From: a virus
DNA length: 23,610 nucleotides
Reading direction: 5' to 3' (one strand)
Virus record (IMG/VR): IMGVR_UViG_3300021976_000230
Coordinates: 1 to 23,610 of that record
Below the pieces are notes generated by a model. It did not search any database. It was not told the DNA's origin and saw nothing but the letters and a program-made list of their open reading frames with translations. A program made the position numbers and the translations under genes. Shown in pieces: positions 10,675-23,610 of this stretch. Position 1 is the first letter of the stretch; every line of letters starts with the position of its first letter.

Positions 10675-11931
10675 TTACGCCCGGCCGCCCTTGTACTCGA
10701 TGAACGAGCCGTTCACCGAGTTGAACTGGAAGCCGAAGTCGGTGGCCTGGTTCACGCGCGCCGGGGTGCCCGGGGGCTGGAACTGGCCGTCCTCCATGTA
10801 GATGGACTTGATGATCTCGGCCGGGTTCTTCGGGTTCTGGATCTGGACCTCGACCGGGATGGACTCGAAGTTGGCGAAGTCGAACACCTCGTCCACGTCA
10901 CGGCCGGTGACGAGTGACAGGGTGCTGAAGAACGCCGCGATGTCCTTCGGGCGGATGGTGACAGTGCCGGTGGCGTCCGTGCCGTTGACGACGCGGCCCG
11001 TGACCTCCGAGTTGCCCATCTCGCGCTCCACCTCGCCGTCGATGGTGGCCTCCAGCTCGAACGTCTGGATGCCCGGCAGCCGCACCTGGCTGCCGTCCTC
11101 GCCGACGAGCACGACGATGTTGCGGCCACGGACCGCGCCGGGCTTGATGGTGGCGTCGGCGTTGACCGCCTGCGGGTACGCCTTCGCCACCTCAGTGAAG
11201 TACGTGTAGCGGACCTGGGCGCCGACGGGGGGCGCGACCGCGAACGTGATGGTGGCGATGCCCGGCGCCCCAGCGACGGCGGGGGAGGACTCCTCGTAGT
11301 CCACGCCACGCACCTGGAGCACGCCGTCCACCAGGACGCCGAAGACGCGCTGGAAGGTCGTGCCCGCCGGGCCGCCGAGACGCAGGGCGCGCGCGGCCTC
11401 GCTGGTGGCGAAGGCGACCTGCGCGGCGACGCCTGCGGCGATCTCCTCGACCGGCGGTGACTGCGCGTAGTAGAACGCGCCACCCGACAGCTCGACCTCC
11501 TGCACCGCGTTGTCGGTGACACCGAAGCGGTACCGCAGGCGGGTCGGGTAGTAGGCCGGGATGATGAGACCGGCGGCGATGTTGCCGCCCGCCGCGCCGA
11601 CGTTGCGCTTCCACGGCGAGACGATGTTGACGAACTCGCAGTCCTCCCAGCGGTACGCCGTGTTCGCCGGGTCGTCATAGCCCGGGGGCTCGTTGACGAG
11701 CTGGTTGCCGATCTTGCCGTGCAGGAAGGCCATGAGGTCCGTGGTGACATCCCACGACTCCATCGAGAACGTGAAGTCCGGCTCGCCCGGAACCTTGTCC
11801 ACCACCAGGTCGTTGCCGACCTCGCGGACCGTCTCGATGGGGATGCGAGCGTCGCCGAGGCCCGCCGACTGAAGGCGGTCCACGACGTTGCGGCCCGCCA
11901 CGGTGACGATGGAGCCTGCTCGGATGCTCAT
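10675..11931 (-). CDS. Major tail tube protein with an inserted beta-domain (418 aa)
   Basis: The ATG overlaps the previous stop as ATGA. The N terminus (MSIRAGSIVTVAGRNVVDRL) and C-terminal half show the pattern of siphovirus tube proteins: a strand-rich stretch with VEREMGNSEVTGRVVNGTDA, then TIRPKDIAAFFSTLSLVTG, then DGQFQPPGTPARVNQATDFG and a final FNSVNGSFIEYKGG. Residues ~190-248 form what looks like an inserted beta-sandwich (FGVLVDGVLQVRGVDYEES ... ITFAVAPPVGAQVRYTYF), so at 418 residues it is larger than simple tube proteins; such inserts usually project from the tube surface. It polymerises into the tail tube around the tape measure protein. The gene is preceded by a possible late promoter and followed by two hairpins, as expected for an abundantly made protein. 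Confidence 0.85.
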   Translation of the reverse strand: MSIRAGSIVTVAGRNVVDRLQSAGLGDARIPIETVREVGNDLVVDKVPGEPDFTFSMESWDVTTDLMAFLHGKIGNQLVNEPPGYDDPANTAYRWEDCEFVNIVSPWKRNVGAAGGNIAAGLIIPAYYPTRLRYRFGVTDNAVQEVELSGGAFYYAQSPPVEEIAAGVAAQVAFATSEAARALRLGGPAGTTFQRVFGVLVDGVLQVRGVDYEESSPAVAGAPGIATITFAVAPPVGAQVRYTYFTEVAKAYPQAVNADATIKPGAVRGRNIVVLVGEDGSQVRLPGIQTFELEATIDGEVEREMGNSEVTGRVVNGTDATGTVTIRPKDIAAFFSTLSLVTGRDVDEVFDFANFESIPVEVQIQNPKNPAEIIKSIYMEDGQFQPPGTPARVNQATDFGFQFNSVNGSFIEYKGGRA

Positions 11932-12197
11932 GCGGGGATTCTCCTTCGGGTGTGACGGCCGTCAGGATCGGCCTGGTCTCGTAGTTCGAGGGCGAGCGCG
12001 TTCACTTCCTCCCCCGGTCTCAGGGACGTGATCTCCAGGGCATCGAGGGCGAGAGCGTGCATCTTGCGTCGGACGGCGATCTTGAAGGCTTCGGCGACAT
12101 CGGGCGGAAGATGCGGCTCGACCTTCTCCTCGAACTCGCCGAGGATCTGGGCCATGTACCGCTTCTTGCGCTTGTGGACTAGGGCTGCCTTGTCCAT
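11928..12197 (-). CDS. Small protein upstream of the tail tube gene (89 aa)
   Basis: This 89-residue protein is first in the tail transcription unit, directly downstream of the proposed promoter at 12227-12239. It is basic at the N terminus (KAALVHKRKKRYMAQILGEF) and otherwise helical and acidic/basic, with a PPDVAEAFKIAVRRKMHALA helix, and ends in an Arg-rich tail. Its stop overlaps the tail tube ATG (ATGA). The ATG at 12197 is preceded by GGCGG, a modest site; an internal ATG at codon 15 is an alternative start. No family is recognised. Its place between neck and tube genes would fit a tail accessory or assembly factor, but that is only positional inference. Confidence 0.7.
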   Translation of the reverse strand: MDKAALVHKRKKRYMAQILGEFEEKVEPHLPPDVAEAFKIAVRRKMHALALDALEITSLRPGEEVNALALELRDQADPDGRHTRRRIPA

Positions 12198-12226: not shown

Positions 12227-12239
12227 TAATATACGACTG
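12227..12239 (-). promoter_or_regulatory. Candidate late promoter (CAGTCGTATATTA) before the tail operon
   Basis: The coding strand reads AACGACAGTCGTATATTA over 12227-12244, which differs by one base from the copy inside the protease gene. The TATATT part fits a -10 element; start would fall near 12221, giving a leader of about 24 bases before the ATG at 12197. It sits in a 50-base non-coding gap, an AT-rich island in GC-rich DNA. No convincing -35 is seen. Confidence 0.55.
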
Positions 12240-15772: not shown

Positions 15773-17248
15773 CTACTCGGTCCTCACGTACGTCAGGGTC
15801 ACGGTCACGCCCACCGTCGCGCCGTCGTTCTTCACGAGGAAGCGCAACGTCGAACTGCCGTCCGACGAATAGAGGTCTGCGGTCGGCGAGAGCATCCACG
15901 CCAAGTCGTCGGCGGTGAGCGCGAAGTCCAGCAATAGGCCGTGGTCTCCCGCCGGGTCGACGCCTACAGCGCGCGCGGCGTCAGCGTCACGGTAGGCGTC
16001 GCTGGCGTAGGCGCGAACACGCGCGGCCTTAGTGGACTCGATGGCGAGCACGCGGACGCTCGGGTGGAGGTTCAGGTCGTGCTCGACCTCGGCCCCGGCC
16101 GCGAGCGCGGGCAGCGCGATGTTCACCGTGGCGCGTACGGGGAGCGAGCCCGCCGAGTCGTAGACGAGGCGATCCCATGAGCTGGTAATCGGCGCCAGCG
16201 AGGCCGTGCCGAGCACGATCCTGACCGTGCCGGACTCGGGGATCGCGTTGTTGGGCTCGATTGAGATGAAGTAGCGGCCAGCCACGAGATTGACGTTGGC
16301 GGCGTCGGCACTGCCGGAGTGGCGCTGCGTGCCACCCGCGTCGCGTATCGTCATCACCCCGGCCCCGCCGAGGCCGGGCTCCTTGTCAACCGTGAGCGTG
16401 CCGTCAGTGGCGAGATCGAAGTAGTAGAACGCGAACGTGTCGGGGGTGCCTCCACACGTCCAGTTGTCAGGCGCGGTGCCCAGCGGCTCGGACGGGTGAC
16501 CGGCATAGGGCGGCAGCGAGAGCACGGGGTGGTCACTGCTAGCGCCGGGTTCGTCACCGCCAGGCGCCGTATCCATGGCGATCCACAAGGCGTCAGCGTG
16601 GCGCACGACGGCGCCAGCGGGGTAGAGCTGGGCCGTCCAGTCGCCGCGCCAGTCGAAGCCGCCGGACGCACCATCGGCACCGGGCACGCCCGGCAGCCCC
16701 TGGGCACCCTCCGGGCCTGCCGGACCCGCGTCGCCCGTGTCACCCTTCGGCCCAGCCGGTCCGACACCGCCCGCAGGACCCTCGACGCCCTGTGGTCCGG
16801 CGTCACCTTGCGGGCCTGCGGCGCCAGGCGGACCCGGATCGCCCTGGAGGCCGTCATCGCCCGGATCACCCTTCGGTCCGGGCGGACCCTGCGCACCCAC
16901 GCCGGCCGGACCCGGGTCGCCCTGGAGGCCCTGCGGCCCAGCCGGTCCCGCACCGCCAGCCGGACCGGCTGGGCCGGGCTCGCCCTGGAGTGGCGTGTCG
17001 AACGGCTCGGGCTCCGACGTGAAGCCCCGATAGCTGAACGTCCACGTGTAGCGGCCGGGCTCGACCCAGAAGGTGACCTTGCCATCTATCGGCGTGGTCG
17101 ACGGATTGTCAGCGGGCGCCGGATCGGCCTCGGTCTCGTACACGGCGGCCGGAAGTCCGGACTGTCGTTCGGTGACAAGCACTTCCGCGCCGCGTCGCAC
17201 GTTGCCCGCGCGATCCGTGACCGTGACGTTGAGCGGGTATCGCGCCAT
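15773..17248 (-). CDS. Collagen-like fibre protein with possible carbohydrate-binding module (491 aa)
   Basis: The ATG directly follows the adaptor stop (TAGATG), so translation is probably coupled. Residues 1-88 form a beta-sandwich-like domain with [20 protein letters not shown] and [19 protein letters not shown]. Residues 89-197 are about 35 Gly-X-Y triplets, broken once near residue 116-118, a collagen-like stalk. Residues 198-235 ([20 protein letters not shown], then [15 protein letters not shown]) have the W...Y-x-x-G-x-x-V...W-x-A spacing of chitin-binding type CBM5/12 modules. Residues ~270-490 are further beta-rich domains, including the [11 protein letters not shown] segment and the C-terminal [20 protein letters not shown]. 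Collagen-like stretches occur in many phage fibres and form trimers. Its position in the connector module, not with the tail tip genes, suggests a head, neck or whisker fibre; a tail fibre cannot be excluded. Confidence 0.8.
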
Positions 17249-18627: not shown

Positions 18628-19566
18628 CTACGTCAGGACGATGCGGCCGACGCGACCCCGGTTGATGCCGTAGAGGAGCATCCCGGCGTCCTTCGCCGTC
18701 TCCCAGCGCGTGTAGAACGCCGGGCGGGGGAGCTGCTGGACCTTCGCCGCCGCACCGAAGTACGTCAGGCGTCCGGCGTTCTGGCCGACGATCCACAGCT
18801 CGTTCGTGGGCAGCACGAGGTTGCCCGCGAAGTCCTCGAAGTTCTCGACCTCGACCACCGGGTAGCCCTTGTACGTGCCGATCTGGCCCGTCCGGAACAC
18901 CTGGTTCTTGATCTCGTCGCCGAACTCCAGTCCGATGTTCGCCAGGTTGCGCGTCGCCTGGCGGGCGCCGAGGATGGAGATGTTGCCCTTGGAGCGGTTC
19001 GCCACCGCCTCCAGGACCGGATCGAGCTGCACGCCCGTGAGCGTGGCGGACGCGAACGTCCCGAACGTGGCGCCGGCCGTGATGCCCGCCTGGATCAGCT
19101 CGACCAGGCGGAACGCCGGGAGCTGGCGCAGCTTCTCCTGCGCCTGCGCCTGGAGCTTCCCGAAGGAGCCCCAGAAGTCCAGCGTGATCTCGTCGCGGTG
19201 CAGGTCGATGGCGGTGACCATCTCCTCGCGCGGCATCTGCGCCCGCTCGTAGCGGATGATGTCGGAGAGGATCTGGCCGCCCTTGCCCTGCCAGTAGGCG
19301 CGCATGCCGCGCAGATCCTCGTCCACGTAGTCGGGGTCGCCGAGGCCGACCGTCTTGACCTCGATGACACGACGAACGATGTCGCCGTCCATCGCGTCCG
19401 ACCACGCACGGTTGAGCAGGTCGTACGCGACCTCCTCCATGTCGCTCGGGTGGCGCATGAAGTGCTGGCCGAGGGCGGCGTTGCTCTGGGCCATCAGGAG
19501 CTGACGCTTCTCGGCGTCCTGCTCCTCCGCGACGGCCTTCAGCGTGTTGAAGACGAGGGCGTCCAC
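18628..19566 (-). CDS. Major capsid protein, HK97 fold (312 aa)
   Basis: The start is a GTG at 19566 with AAGGAG seven bases upstream. The N-terminal ~50 residues are helical (MDALVFNTLKAVAEEQDAEK). The middle has MPREEMVTAIDLHRDEITLD and a helix FRLVELIQAGITAGATFGTF. The C-terminal half has LDPVLEAVANRSKGNISILG, then IGTYKGYPVVEVENFEDFAG, NLVLPTNELWIVGQNAGRLT and YFG, which is the typical P-domain/A-domain pattern of HK97-fold capsid proteins. Its 312 residues are within the usual mature range, with no obvious separate delta domain, agreeing with the separate scaffold encoded upstream. Order protease/scaffold, decoration, capsid is normal. The gene ends at a strong hairpin. Confidence 0.85.
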   Translation of the reverse strand: MDALVFNTLKAVAEEQDAEKRQLLMAQSNAALGQHFMRHPSDMEEVAYDLLNRAWSDAMDGDIVRRVIEVKTVGLGDPDYVDEDLRGMRAYWQGKGGQILSDIIRYERAQMPREEMVTAIDLHRDEITLDFWGSFGKLQAQAQEKLRQLPAFRLVELIQAGITAGATFGTFASATLTGVQLDPVLEAVANRSKGNISILGARQATRNLANIGLEFGDEIKNQVFRTGQIGTYKGYPVVEVENFEDFAGNLVLPTNELWIVGQNAGRLTYFGAAAKVQQLPRPAFYTRWETAKDAGMLLYGINRGRVGRIVLT

Positions 19567-19630: not shown

Positions 19631-20194
19631 CTAGAACTGGTTGGCCCGCAGGAACGCCACCGTCAGGATGCCGTCGTTGCCCGCGCCGTACTTGCGGTAC
19701 TCCCGGACCTCGAAGATGTCGGTGCCCGCGAGGATGGCGGCGTTCGACCACGCCCCCGCTCCGGCCGCCTTGCCCGCCGGTCGCGGCGCGGCGACCGCCC
19801 AGCCGACCTTCTGGCCGGGCGTGTAGTCGGCGCGCGGCTCCACGAGCGTCAGGTGCAGCACGCCCGTGTGGACGGTGCGCACCCAGTCGGCCGACGCGAT
19901 GGCCTGGTTGACGATCTCGTTCGGGCCGAGCGCGCCGGGACCGTTGTTCACGTCCGGGATCTCGACCTGACGCATCGCCACGGCCACCTGGTCCTTGTCC
20001 GGCGCGTCACCCACGATGAGCTGCTTGTAGGCGAGCTTGCCTCCCACGCCCCCGGCGACGGGGGCGACGCACGCGCCCGGGATGATGACGCCGGACGCGC
20101 GGCGGTCCGACCAGATCTCGCCGGGCGAGGCGATGGTGACGTTGGCCAGCTTGCCGACGCCGAGAAGCGGGTAGGCACCTGCGACGGGGCTCAT
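19631..20194 (-). CDS. Probable capsid decoration / stabilisation protein (187 aa)
   Basis: The ATG has AGAAGGAG upstream, one of the best sites in the window, implying high expression. The sequence is rich in Gly, Ala and Val and looks all-beta: GVGKLANVTIASPGEIWSD, SGVIIPGACVAPVAGG, QVAVAMRQVEIPDVNNGPGA, WVRTVHTGVLHLTLVEPRAD and FEVREYRKYGAGNDGILTVA. There is no membrane segment or catalytic motif. Its location between scaffold and major capsid genes, and its size, fit head decoration proteins that trim the capsid surface in stoichiometric amounts. The family could not be named from the sequence, so a minor head protein is the alternative. Confidence 0.6.
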   Translation of the reverse strand: MSPVAGAYPLLGVGKLANVTIASPGEIWSDRRASGVIIPGACVAPVAGGVGGKLAYKQLIVGDAPDKDQVAVAMRQVEIPDVNNGPGALGPNEIVNQAIASADWVRTVHTGVLHLTLVEPRADYTPGQKVGWAVAAPRPAGKAAGAGAWSNAAILAGTDIFEVREYRKYGAGNDGILTVAFLRANQF

Positions 20195-20252: not shown

Positions 20253-20825
20253 CTACTTCTTCGCGCCGCTGAACGCCCCCGCCAGGCTGCCGACGACCGA
20301 GGCCCGCTCGGCGTCCGACGGCGCGGTGGACGCCGGGGTGGACGGGGTGACGCCGCGCGCCGCCGCGATCTCCTCCAGCGAGAAGGTCGGGCCGGTCCGC
20401 GCCTGCTCGTTGGCCGGGGGCGGGTCGCCAGCCTTCGGCGCGTCGCGCTTGACGGCCGTCAGCTCCTCGACCTCCTTGAGGCGGGAGTCCCAGTCCTCGT
20501 CGGACATGGCACCGGCCTGCTCCTGGAGCTTGGCCTTGGTGTGGTCGCCGAGCTTGGCGACGAAGCCCTCGCCCAGGCCGCCCCAGCGCTTGTCCTTGAG
20601 CTGCGACTTGGCAGCCGTCTCCTCGGCGGTCGTCACCTTGGCCTCGGCCTCGGTGGCGCGCGTCTCGGCGGCGGTGACCTTGGCCTCAGCCTGCTCGACC
20701 TTGGTCTCCAGCTCGGCCTTCTCCTGCGCGGCCGTCGTCTTCGCCGTGGCGGTCTCGGCCTTGGCGTCGTCGCGCTCCTTGCGCAGCGTGGCCAGCTCGC
20801 TGTCCTCGATCTGGACGAGTGCCAT
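20253..20825 (-). CDS. Nested scaffold protein from an internal start (190 aa, same frame)
   Basis: An in-frame ATG at codon 273 of the protease gene is preceded by AGGAG with a ten-base spacing (20836-20840). Translation from it would give a 190-residue protein beginning MALVQIEDSELATLRKERDD. It is a charged heptad-like coiled coil (Ala/Glu/Lys/Thr repeats to ~residue 85), then a TKAKLQEQAGAMSDEDWDSR segment, a Pro-rich linker and a small C-terminal piece ending AGAFSGAKK. In lambda, Nu3 scaffold is made the same way from within the protease gene C. The scaffold guides procapsid assembly and is later cleaved. A promoter-like element lies 163 bases upstream at 20988-21000. Expression from this start is inference. 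Confidence 0.6.
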   Translation of the reverse strand: MALVQIEDSELATLRKERDDAKAETATAKTTAAQEKAELETKVEQAEAKVTAAETRATEAEAKVTTAEETAAKSQLKDKRWGGLGEGFVAKLGDHTKAKLQEQAGAMSDEDWDSRLKEVEELTAVKRDAPKAGDPPPANEQARTGPTFSLEEIAAARGVTPSTPASTAPSDAERASVVGSLAGAFSGAKK

Positions 20826-21641
20826 GTTCCTGTCGCTCCTCTGTGTGGCTTGCGCAGTTGCGGTGTGGGCGGTGTGGTGGAAGCTGGCCACCTCGTCCTC
20901 CCAGGACTCCAGGTGGGCCTCGCTATAGGCACCTTGTGCTCCACGGGATCCGAAGATGAGGCCGGTCCCGGTGAAGCAGACATCGCCTAATATACGACTG
21001 GCGTTTGCACCTTGGCTCGCCGCCGTGTCCACGTAGCCCGCGTTGGGGTTCGACGCCTTGAGGTGTTCGCACCACTGGGCCTGCTCTGCGCCCTGTGGCA
21101 GCTTGTGGAACACCCGGCCGCATTCGCTGCACTCGTACCACGGGCTGAAGCACTCCATCGACTGCATCAGCGAGCCCTTGCTGGCGTTCGCCTCGGCCTC
21201 GTGGACGGCCTCCGGGAACCGGTGCCCCCAGAGCGCGAGCACGGTGTCGATCCGGGTCCGTGGCACGCCGTCCTTCTCAGGCGTGTACAACTTGGTGTCG
21301 GCGATGGTGCCAACGGCAGTCCGGGGATCGTGCATGACGGTCACCGGCATCAACATGGGCGTCAGGCTCTTGATGGCCAGCTCCTGGCCGTGCCACTGAG
21401 CGCCGTTCTGGTTCGCCTTGTCGGCCTCGACGTAGCTGCCCTTGAACCAGACGATGTTCTCGTTCGGCGCGTTCTGCTTGACGGCCTTCGAGAAGGCGTA
21501 CTCCTCGATCTGCTCGGTCGTCGGTGTGATCCGCTGGACCGGCGTCGTCAGGAAGATCTTGTCGCCGCGCTCGAAGATGCCCTGAGTCTGCGGCACCGGG
21601 ACGCTCAGGATCGGGCGCGACATGACCGGAACGGCTGGCAT
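20253..21641 (-). CDS. Prohead protease-scaffold fusion protein (462 aa)
   Basis: Residues ~60-240 resemble a herpes-type prohead serine protease: IVWFKGSYVEADKANQNGAQ, then MLMPVTVMHDPRTAVGTIAD carrying the likely catalytic H104, and GSLMQSMECFSPWYE carrying the likely nucleophile S161 in a SMEC motif. A Cys/His group follows (C171, C174, C191, H193), probably zinc-binding. Residues 273-375 are a coiled coil and the C terminus is Pro-rich, the scaffold part. It would cleave the scaffold and other head proteins during maturation. The ATG at 21641 lies five bases after an AT-rich promoter-like element, so the message might be leaderless; ATG codon 7 at 21623 is an alternative but lacks a ribosome binding site. 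The gene has an internal start at codon 273. Confidence 0.8.
   Translation of the reverse strand: MPAVPVMSRPILSVPVPQTQGIFERGDKIFLTTPVQRITPTTEQIEEYAFSKAVKQNAPNENIVWFKGSYVEADKANQNGAQWHGQELAIKSLTPMLMPVTVMHDPRTAVGTIADTKLYTPEKDGVPRTRIDTVLALWGHRFPEAVHEAEANASKGSLMQSMECFSPWYECSECGRVFHKLPQGAEQAQWCEHLKASNPNAGYVDTAASQGANASRILGDVCFTGTGLIFGSRGAQGAYSEAHLESWEDEVASFHHTAHTATAQATQRSDRNMALVQIEDSELATLRKERDDAKAETATAKTTAAQEKAELETKVEQAEAKVTAAETRATEAEAKVTTAEETAAKSQLKDKRWGGLGEGFVAKLGDHTKAKLQEQAGAMSDEDWDSRLKEVEELTAVKRDAPKAGDPPPANEQARTGPTFSLEEIAAARGVTPSTPASTAPSDAERASVVGSLAGAFSGAKK
20988..21000 (-). promoter_or_regulatory. Candidate internal promoter within the protease gene
   Basis: The coding strand reads CAGTCGTATATTA, and with its flank (20988-21005) it matches the tail operon copy at 17 of 18 bases. 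It falls in the protease reading frame as AGT CGT ATA TTA (S215-R216-I217-L218), using ATA and TTA, which are rare in GC-rich actinobacterial genes. The TATATT would start transcription near 20982 and supply the nested scaffold gene. Confidence 0.5.
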
Positions 21642-21646
21642 GCCCC

Positions 21647-21657
21647 TAATTTACGAC
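21647..21657 (-). promoter_or_regulatory. Candidate late promoter (GTCGTAAATTA) before the protease gene
   Basis: This AT-rich element is in the 34-base gap between portal and protease. The TAAATT hexamer at 21648-21653 would place transcription start at 21641, the A of the protease ATG, if the usual 7-base spacing holds, implying a leaderless message. It shares GTCGTAWATTA with the other two copies. Confidence 0.55.
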
Positions 21658-21675: not shown

Positions 21676-23610
21676 CTACTCGGCGGGCGCGGGCGACTGG
21701 ATCTGGATGACCGGGGCGGGCTGGTTGGCCACGGCTTCGGCCACAGCCCTGCCGATCACCTGCGCGAACACCTCGCTGGCGCTGGCGATGACGGCGGCCA
21801 CGTCCAGGCCGCCGACGGCGGTGCGTGCCTGCGCCGCGATGGCGGTCGCGATCTCCTCGGCGCTGGCCACCTCGGGATGCTCCAGCTCGGCGTACTCCTC
21901 GGCGACGGTGGCGGTGATGAAGCCCCAGCGCAGCGCCAGCCCCTCGGCGCGTTGGAGGTCGAAGTGGGGCTCGCGGAAGGCGAGCGCCTTGGCCACGATG
22001 GCTCCGTCCTGCTCACGCTGGCCGACGATCATGGACAGACCCTCGTCCAGGCGGAACGCCCGGATCTCTGTCACCTCGTACTCGGTATTGACGGGGATGA
22101 CGCAGATCGGTCCACTCACCGCCATCTCGGTCTGCGCTGCTGCGGTGCGCTCGAACTCGGTGATCCGCCCAACCGCGTGATCGGGGTACTGCTCCATGAC
22201 GGCCGCCGTCACTTCGCCGACGCGCACCACGCGGTCGTCCAGCCACTCAGCGCGGATCGCCTCGCCCGTGGGGCGACGGAGGAGCTGGCGCTGCGGCGCT
22301 GCGCCCGGCCGGTTCTGGTCCGGCGCACCCGGACGGCCGTTGTTCGAGGACGAGCCCGGGGGACGGCCTGACGGATTGTCGTTCGGCGGTCCGTCAGGGC
22401 TGGAGAACGGGACGGCGCCCGGCACCATCAGCTCGTCATGTCCGGCCGCCTTCTCGCGCTTGCGCTGTGCGACACCAGCCTCGTAGTCGTAGCCCAGCAC
22501 CTCCACCGCGTACTGGCGCGGGATGTCACCCCGGTCGCGTGCCGCCATGACGTTCGCGAAGAAGTCCTTCACGCCGGAGAGGACGACCTTCGGAAACCAG
22601 AGGCTCGGCGGCCCCTTGCGGAAGGCCGACGGGTTGCGAGTGACAACCTCCTCGTAGGTGAAGCGCTCGACGTGGCGCTTGATGTCGCGCCGGTCCGACG
22701 TGACCGTATTGGCGATGAACTCCAGTTCGGACCTAGCCCCCTCGTTGCCGGGGTCCGGCGTCACCTGCTCCGGGATGCAGAGGATCGCCATGGCCAGCTT
22801 GCGGCCGATGAGCTTGCGCTTGGCCGGGTTCAGAAGCTCGTCCAGCTTCGGCGTGATGATGTCCACGGCGAGGCGGTGGTCACCGACGAGCACACCAGTG
22901 CGTGACGCCGCCCGGATCTGGTCCGTCAGGTTGTCGATCTCGGGCTGCTGGGCCGGGATCTGATCGGAGCCCTGCCGGGCGATGACGATGTAGTTCGTCC
23001 CGCCCTGAAGGAGCGCGTAGTCCATGATGTTCAGGAGGCGCTTGGCTTCGAGCAGGGCGAAGTTGGCTGTCATGCGCGGACGCGGGTAGGCTGCCGAACC
23101 CTTCGGCATGGTCGTGCGGTGGACCATGCGCGGGTTCAGCTTGTACAGCTTCTTCCCCGCCGCGAACACGTCCTGGTCGTTCCAGTCGTACTCGATGGCG
23201 CCGATGAACAGCGCGGAGAGGACGGGTTGCTCCTCGCGCATCTTGTTCTTGATGGCGTTCGACGTGCCCTTGTCGAAGAACTTGTCCAGCCAATCCTTCA
23301 GGTGAACGTCAGTTACCTCGTAGGCCAGGTCGCCCGTGCCGAACACGTCCATCGACGTGACACGAATATTCTCGGCGGGGAGGACGCCGATCAGCGGCGT
23401 GGTGAGCTGTGCCTGGACCTTCTCCTCCGTGCCGCTCGGAGTGAAGTTCAGGCGTGAGCGCGTGAACAACTGGACAGTGTTGACCTGTGACGTAATCAGG
23501 TACTCCCGGTGCAGCTCCTTCAACGTGAGGTCCATGTTCGCGTCGCGGCATATGCGGTTGAACAGTCGCAGCGTCGGCTCGTCCTCGTGCTGGTTCTGCA
23601 TGCCGTCCTT
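21676..23610 (-). CDS. Portal protein, 5'-truncated at the window edge, with C-terminal extension
   Basis: The frame is open to the window edge. An ATG at 23601 exists with AAGGA just upstream, but the sequence that follows (HEDEPTLRLFNRICRDANMD) looks like the interior of a portal N-terminal domain, so the true start is probably outside. Residue numbers here are counted from 23601. Visible portal features include a helix-rich core with SNAIKNKMREEQPVLSALFI, the YKLNPRMVHRTTMPKG segment, NIMDYALLQGGTNYIVIARQ, and a later KDFFANVMAARDRGDIPRQY with VEVLGYDYEAG, typical of the portal C-terminal region. A Pro/Gly/Asn-rich linker (~401-440) then leads to a ~200-residue extra domain ending in Ala-rich helices and PAPVIQIQSPAPAE. 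Portals form the 12-mer DNA entry ring. The protease and scaffold genes follow. Confidence 0.8.
   Translation of the reverse strand, partial: KDGMQNQHEDEPTLRLFNRICRDANMDLTLKELHREYLITSQVNTVQLFTRSRLNFTPSGTEEKVQAQLTTPLIGVLPAENIRVTSMDVFGTGDLAYEVTDVHLKDWLDKFFDKGTSNAIKNKMREEQPVLSALFIGAIEYDWNDQDVFAAGKKLYKLNPRMVHRTTMPKGSAAYPRPRMTANFALLEAKRLLNIMDYALLQGGTNYIVIARQGSDQIPAQQPEIDNLTDQIRAASRTGVLVGDHRLAVDIITPKLDELLNPAKRKLIGRKLAMAILCIPEQVTPDPGNEGARSELEFIANTVTSDRRDIKRHVERFTYEEVVTRNPSAFRKGPPSLWFPKVVLSGVKDFFANVMAARDRGDIPRQYAVEVLGYDYEAGVAQRKREKAAGHDELMVPGAVPFSSPDGPPNDNPSGRPPGSSSNNGRPGAPDQNRPGAAPQRQLLRRPTGEAIRAEWLDDRVVRVGEVTAAVMEQYPDHAVGRITEFERTAAAQTEMAVSGPICVIPVNTEYEVTEIRAFRLDEGLSMIVGQREQDGAIVAKALAFREPHFDLQRAEGLALRWGFITATVAEEYAELEHPEVASAEEIATAIAAQARTAVGGLDVAAVIASASEVFAQVIGRAVAEAVANQPAPVIQIQSPAPAE

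Follow-up and report, generated by a model that had tools for sequence, protein, structure and literature searches.

Genome organization

The window (the whole stretch of viral DNA analysed here, a 23.6-kb fragment) has a GC content of 67.7%, and its structural genes lie on the minus strand in the order portal, protease-scaffold fusion, decoration-like gene and major capsid gene, with a shorter putative scaffold gene nested in frame within the fusion (Table 1). A further minus-strand gene (15773–17248) encodes a probable tail or fibre protein with collagen-like GPxGxxG repeats.

Table 1. Positions of the genes and putative regulatory features of the window.
Feature	Coordinates	Strand	Basis or comment
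Portal gene	21676-23601	-	Structural gene
CGTAAATTA, putative leaderless-type promoter of the full-length protease	21647..21655	-	Hexamer 6 nt upstream of ATG
Protease-scaffold fusion ORF, 462 aa	20253..21641	-	Present in the window
Putative internal promoter element CGTATATTA, codons R216-I217-L218	20988..20996	-	Codon conservation across homologues
-10-type hexamer TATATT within CGTATATTA	20994-20989	-	
Predicted transcription start, 6-8 nt past the hexamer	20981..20983	-	Expected from the spacing of leaderless copies
AGGAG, Shine-Dalgarno sequence of the nested gene, also read as codons AGG AGC	20836..20840	-	Conserved spacing
Nested putative scaffold gene, 190 aa from M273	20253..20825	-	Start codon conserved; predicted helices
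Decoration-like gene, probably within the transcription unit	19631..20194	-	Synteny in relatives; function from position only
Major capsid protein gene, probable last gene of the unit	18628..19566	-	phrog_2522 major head protein, E 1.2e-8
CGTATATTA upstream of a small gene (11928-12197) and a tail-like gene (10675-11931)	12227..12235	-	

The protease-scaffold fusion and its relatives

In its structural model the 462-residue product resembles the T4 gp21 capsid protease over a first part, which is followed by a helix of 75 residues and by a C-terminal part that is also helical. Foldseek matches the model to gp21 of T4 (5jbl; E 5e-4, probability 1.00), prohead proteases in BFVD are matched as well, and residues H104 and S161 are invariant across 31 protease homologues. 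The model thus points to a prohead protease fold of the T4 gp21/HK97/assemblin type with conserved Ser/His, an assignment of only moderate strength because the mean pLDDT is 71.6.

Homologues were collected using an eight-row protease alignment and peptides located away from the site described below (PVTVMHD and APNENIxW), which yielded 35 viral loci plus one in an Actinomycetota MAG contig. The site is present in 35 sequences, the window among them, of which 31 are distinct (below 95% identity); pairwise identity among these 31 proteases has a median of 48% and a minimum of 35%. Phages searched with the window protease gave no match. The protease of GX15bay (Caudovirales; L084:7302-9284), a distant catalogued relative, has an intein-like insert immediately before a SMET motif corresponding to QSMEC (S161) of the window, and a terminase-like ORF at L005:24-1910 begins with a Hint/intein-like sequence.

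A putative nested scaffold gene

A preliminary description of this DNA reported an internal ATG at 20825 with AGGAG ten bases upstream. Both are present (ATG at 20825–20823, codon 273; AGGAG at 20840–20836, with a 10-nt spacer), and all homologues have a purine-rich Shine-Dalgarno sequence (mostly AGGAG) ~10 nt (range about 7–13) upstream of a nested start that is located at M273 or a few codons off and is ATG in all except L050, which uses GTG. L044 has an alignment gap at the nested start and also contains a Shine-Dalgarno sequence and start codon. The Shine-Dalgarno sequence is dual-coded as AGG AGN, and only three columns of the alignment are more codon-conserved than that of its AGG (268). 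The nested domain has a predicted 75-residue helix (280–354) and a C-terminal helical part, a coiled coil is predicted, and the 190-residue product that would be made from M273 is a putative scaffold.

A conserved element in the protease reading frame

The sequence CGTATATTAGG (20996–20986, minus strand) is in frame with the protease and encodes R216, I217, L218 and G219, the first three with the codons CGT, ATA and TTA. A promoter-like element had been noted overlapping ATA and TTA; these codons are in frame and rare as described, although the numbering requires correction, with ATA at codon 217 and TTA at codon 218. Among the 31 distinct homologues covering the site, CGT and TTA are each kept in 31/31, and ATA in 30/31 overall and in 30/30 of those with Ile at residue 217. 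The exception, L050, reads CGTACATTA, where ACA replaces ATA (Ile to Thr) and TANATT is retained. Synonymous GC-rich codons at 216–218, for which a comparison of relatives had been proposed, occur in 0/31, and the promoter reading thus withstands this comparison. With the site omitted, CGT accounts for 12.9% of Arg, ATA for 4.8% of Ile and TTA for 0.8% of Leu codons in the same proteases, with seven TTA codons outside the site in the entire set.

When 246 columns were tested for codon conservation, 218, 217 and 216 took the top three places (binomial log10 P of −65, −40 and −27.5, respectively; because the sequences are related these values serve as ranks and not as true probabilities). Synonymous conservation likewise peaks at the triplet 216–218 (0.58 over expectation; mean 0.07, sd 0.12), whereas the codons of neighbouring invariant residues vary. 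Hits from a DNA pattern scan, which required the motif, were left out of these statistics.

No recognizable −35 is present, and a sigma-70 −35/−10 scan at the element found nothing. An ECF-type −35 (AAC at 16–17 nt) was considered and rejected, as a fixed upstream element is absent and there is only a weak CCGA near −11 to −8. Codon 220 leans to NNT (Asp is GAT in 14/15, versus an 18% background), which in 19/31 homologues creates an out-of-frame RTG 5 nt past the hexamer (near window 20981–20983). A leaderless ORF beginning here was ruled out as a real product, since the ATG occurs in 19/31 and a stop codon closes its frame after 8 codons in most cases (in the window it runs for 116); the codon 220 bias might reflect either a leaderless mini-ORF or a preference for certain bases in the initial transcript.

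A strand-specific motif family

The element belongs to a family with the consensus CGTANATTA, of which there are 127 copies (distinct contexts) in 545 kb of the window and its relatives, 127 of them sense and 0 antisense; a reversed-motif control occurs once in 545 kb. Fifteen long whole contigs contain 95 copies, confined to a single strand in each contig, numbering 4–9 in most and concentrated largely in the structural region. In the window, a second exact copy (CGTAAATTAGG, 21655–21645) directly precedes the ATG of the protease, and another copy, with two mismatches, is at 12235–12225. GX15bay lacks the motif throughout the 22 kb examined, and its protease has no coiled coil fused to it.

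Of the 96 non-internal copies, 49 have an RTG 6–8 nt past the hexamer (46 if it must be the first RTG of an ORF), and a second group has a spacing of about 27–47 nt to the start. Half of the non-internal copies thus resemble leaderless −10 promoters in their start spacing, and judged by sequence the family is laid out as expected for a −10 element whose starts are leaderless or have short leaders. At the internal copy, the distance from CGTA to the nested start is 150–198 nt.

The bases preceding CGTA are lineage-specific across the clade (GCT, CGG, GT or AGT). At −1 to −3 the internal copy agrees with the remaining copies in its own phage at 86, 70 and 54%, against 54, 38 and 33% when permuted (p about 5e-4, phylogeny not corrected for). 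Since the flanks of the internal copy follow those of its own phage's other copies, one factor probably reads them all, and the lineage-specific flanks suggest that the element co-varies with its reader.

The probable transcription unit and the variable base

The 32 loci covering both the internal site and the major capsid gene have no motif copy in the interval between them, so the likely unit consists of the scaffold, decoration and major capsid genes. The next copy is directly after the major capsid gene in nine distinct loci, and 19 distinct relatives carry a copy before the tail-like gene. The earlier proposal of a promoter favouring scaffold over protease is supported but was too narrow, in that the unit most likely includes the decoration and major capsid genes too.

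At internal copies the variable base N of the motif is T in 30/31, and at tail copies in 15/19; elsewhere T is rare (protease start 1/24, portal 2/22, post-capsid 0/9). Because T brings the hexamer nearer to TATAAT, it can reasonably be taken to mark stronger promoters for the capsid and tail units. The need for Ile at 217 in most relatives may add to the prevalence of T at the internal site; it cannot explain T at the tail site, where the copy lies between genes.

A candidate sigma factor and the host

A divergent sigma-like protein of about 200 residues is encoded in 13/13 contigs of at least 63 kb (five-row profile), an example being G003:C1:37055-37660, and is lacking only from partial, shorter contigs, including the window fragment. 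Pfam gave the first region 2 and region 4 matches in this protein, and tblastn against 50,697 phage records found no match to it. This phage sigma factor probably reads CGTANATTA. A T7-type RNA polymerase search gave no match, its control being likewise silent. One homologue of the window protease is on a 6.1-kb contig of an Actinomycetota MAG, with no other strong match among 395 genomes of that class.

A probable late promoter within the protease gene

From the motif family with its strand bias and placement, the base conservation of the internal copy, the nested Shine-Dalgarno sequence and start, and the sigma gene, all of them seen by comparison of relatives, we infer transcription from the internal copy, its start site, the relative promoter strengths and recognition by the phage sigma factor. 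We consider it highly probable that a phage-specific late promoter in the protease frame, combined with the nested scaffold gene, yields scaffold and shell proteins in excess over the protease. The promoter would be CGTATATTA, of −10 type and without a recognizable −35; the preliminary description was correct that the element is promoter-like, but it consists of just one box, of −10 type, and its reader is probably a sigma factor of the phage. RNA polymerase, most likely with the phage's own sigma factor, would initiate about 6–8 nt past TATATT, and 5′ ends would be expected 6–8 nt past CGTANATT at internal and gene-start copies. The internal transcript would be without the protease part, with the nested scaffold as its first gene, translated from M273 with its own Shine-Dalgarno sequence, followed by the decoration and then the major capsid protein. 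The leaderless copy before the protease ATG, probably a weaker promoter, would give rise to the full-length protease-scaffold fusion. With both an internal promoter and a nested Shine-Dalgarno sequence, the scaffold and shell proteins would exceed the protease at the RNA and the ribosome level. A more specific formulation is favoured with somewhat less assurance: that transcription of scaffold, decoration and capsid is clade-wide, is driven by a phage-sigma −10-only promoter lying obligately in the protease frame and tuned by N, and resembles the UL26/UL26.5 arrangement.

The main rival, which we regard as having a minor though real chance of being correct, is that the promoter is read by the host housekeeping sigma factor. 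TANATT fits the TANNNT −10 of mycobacterial leaderless genes, in which the hexamer goes with an RTG located at the 5′ end or close to it (PMC4633059), and one homologue is in an Actinomycetota MAG contig. However, the 9-mer is a longer element than that of actinobacterial leaderless promoters and a more constrained one (CG precedes the hexamer, A follows it, and hexamer position 4 is A), its flanks vary by phage lineage, the copies are on one strand and largely in the structural region, and every long contig has a sigma gene. Less likely again, and in our view improbable, the motif is a strand-oriented binding site or RNA element (a stoperator-like operator, a start-associated sequence or an RNA processing site) and scaffold excess is purely translational, as for lambda C/Nu3; fixed orientation and many copies near gene starts also fit such an element, and the nested Shine-Dalgarno sequence by itself could yield scaffold. 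The 6–8 nt peak between a TANNNT-like hexamer and RTG is, however, the expectation for a leaderless promoter, there is one copy per transcription unit, and copies 27–47 nt upstream of starts, or 150–198 nt for the internal one, are unsuited to a role in translation.

Two further readings concern the codons themselves. Residues 216–219 form a predicted strand and the FTGTGLIFG downstream of RIL is highly conserved, as would be expected were RIL kept for the protease fold alone with incidental codons, but the fixation of rare CGT, ATA and TTA beside neighbours with varied codons refutes this, L050 has Thr in place of Ile, and we give the idea virtually no credence. The suggestion that the rare TTA ties protease synthesis to bldA tRNA supply is equally implausible and was not borne out: TTA forms, with CGT and ATA, a single fixed 9-mer that is also found between genes, just seven other TTA codons occur in the 31 proteases, and nothing points to a Streptomyces host. 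Since the 9-mer recurs at gene starts, always in the sense orientation, the best reading of the codon conservation is the one originally put forward, namely that the rare codons are kept because the DNA acts as a promoter.

For these uncultivated soil phages, which make up a large family, the protease-frame 9-mer apparently provides for separate, high-level production of scaffold and shell proteins. This is an unusually clean case of one stretch of DNA serving as protein code and apparent promoter, in proteases sharing only about 35–85% of their residues. For a soil-phage clade with almost no cultivated relatives, it also provides a promoter motif together with a candidate sigma factor, making late-gene regulation in these uncultivated phages testable.

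Comparison with known systems

Phage lambda produces its Nu3 scaffold from an internal in-frame start of protease gene C, by translational means only. The same layout is found here, with an in-frame internal start and ribosome binding site ahead of a predicted scaffold domain but, unlike lambda, an in-frame promoter-like element is conserved too. The gp55-dependent late promoters of T4 (TATAAATA) are −10-only elements used by a diverged phage sigma factor, and share this simplicity with the element here while differing in sequence.

Single-element late promoters read by a phage sigma factor are already known for phiEco32 and 7-11 relatives (PMC8948821; PMC4331800). The phiEco32 gp36-type middle/late promoters (tAATGTAtA) are present in few copies upstream of late genes (PMC8948821; PMC4331800), and transcription starts 6–8 bp downstream of the single element (PMC8948821). 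The likeness lies in a single 9-base element without a −35, in one orientation, at several late-gene starts and with a phage sigma factor; the RTG spacing here (6–8 nt past the hexamer) is compatible with the phiEco32 start distance. The element here is CGTANATTA and not the phiEco32 consensus, indicating similar working by another promoter family, and it differs further in having an in-frame copy inside the protease gene, many leaderless starts and a sigma factor that keeps a region-4-like match. Mapping in phage AR9 has placed internal late promoters within ORFs (PMC5312081). A clade-wide promoter fixed in the protease frame before a nested scaffold gene and capsid gene was not found in the open-access papers searched; nested scaffold starts and single-element phage-sigma late promoters are known separately.

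A parallel in gene layout is offered by herpesvirus UL26/UL26.5 (UL80/UL80.5), where a protease-scaffold fusion likewise contains a scaffold gene nested in the same frame. UL26.5 is transcribed from a separate promoter located within UL26, and herpesviruses and tailed phages have capsid and protease folds in common. Scaffold derived from the fusion makes up only about 10% of herpesvirus scaffold (PMC12474303). Herpesviruses are eukaryotic viruses with unrelated promoter machinery, and the unit here extends into the decoration and major capsid genes. The comparison nevertheless suggests that a nested scaffold layout with its own transcription arose in tailed phages as it did in herpesviruses.
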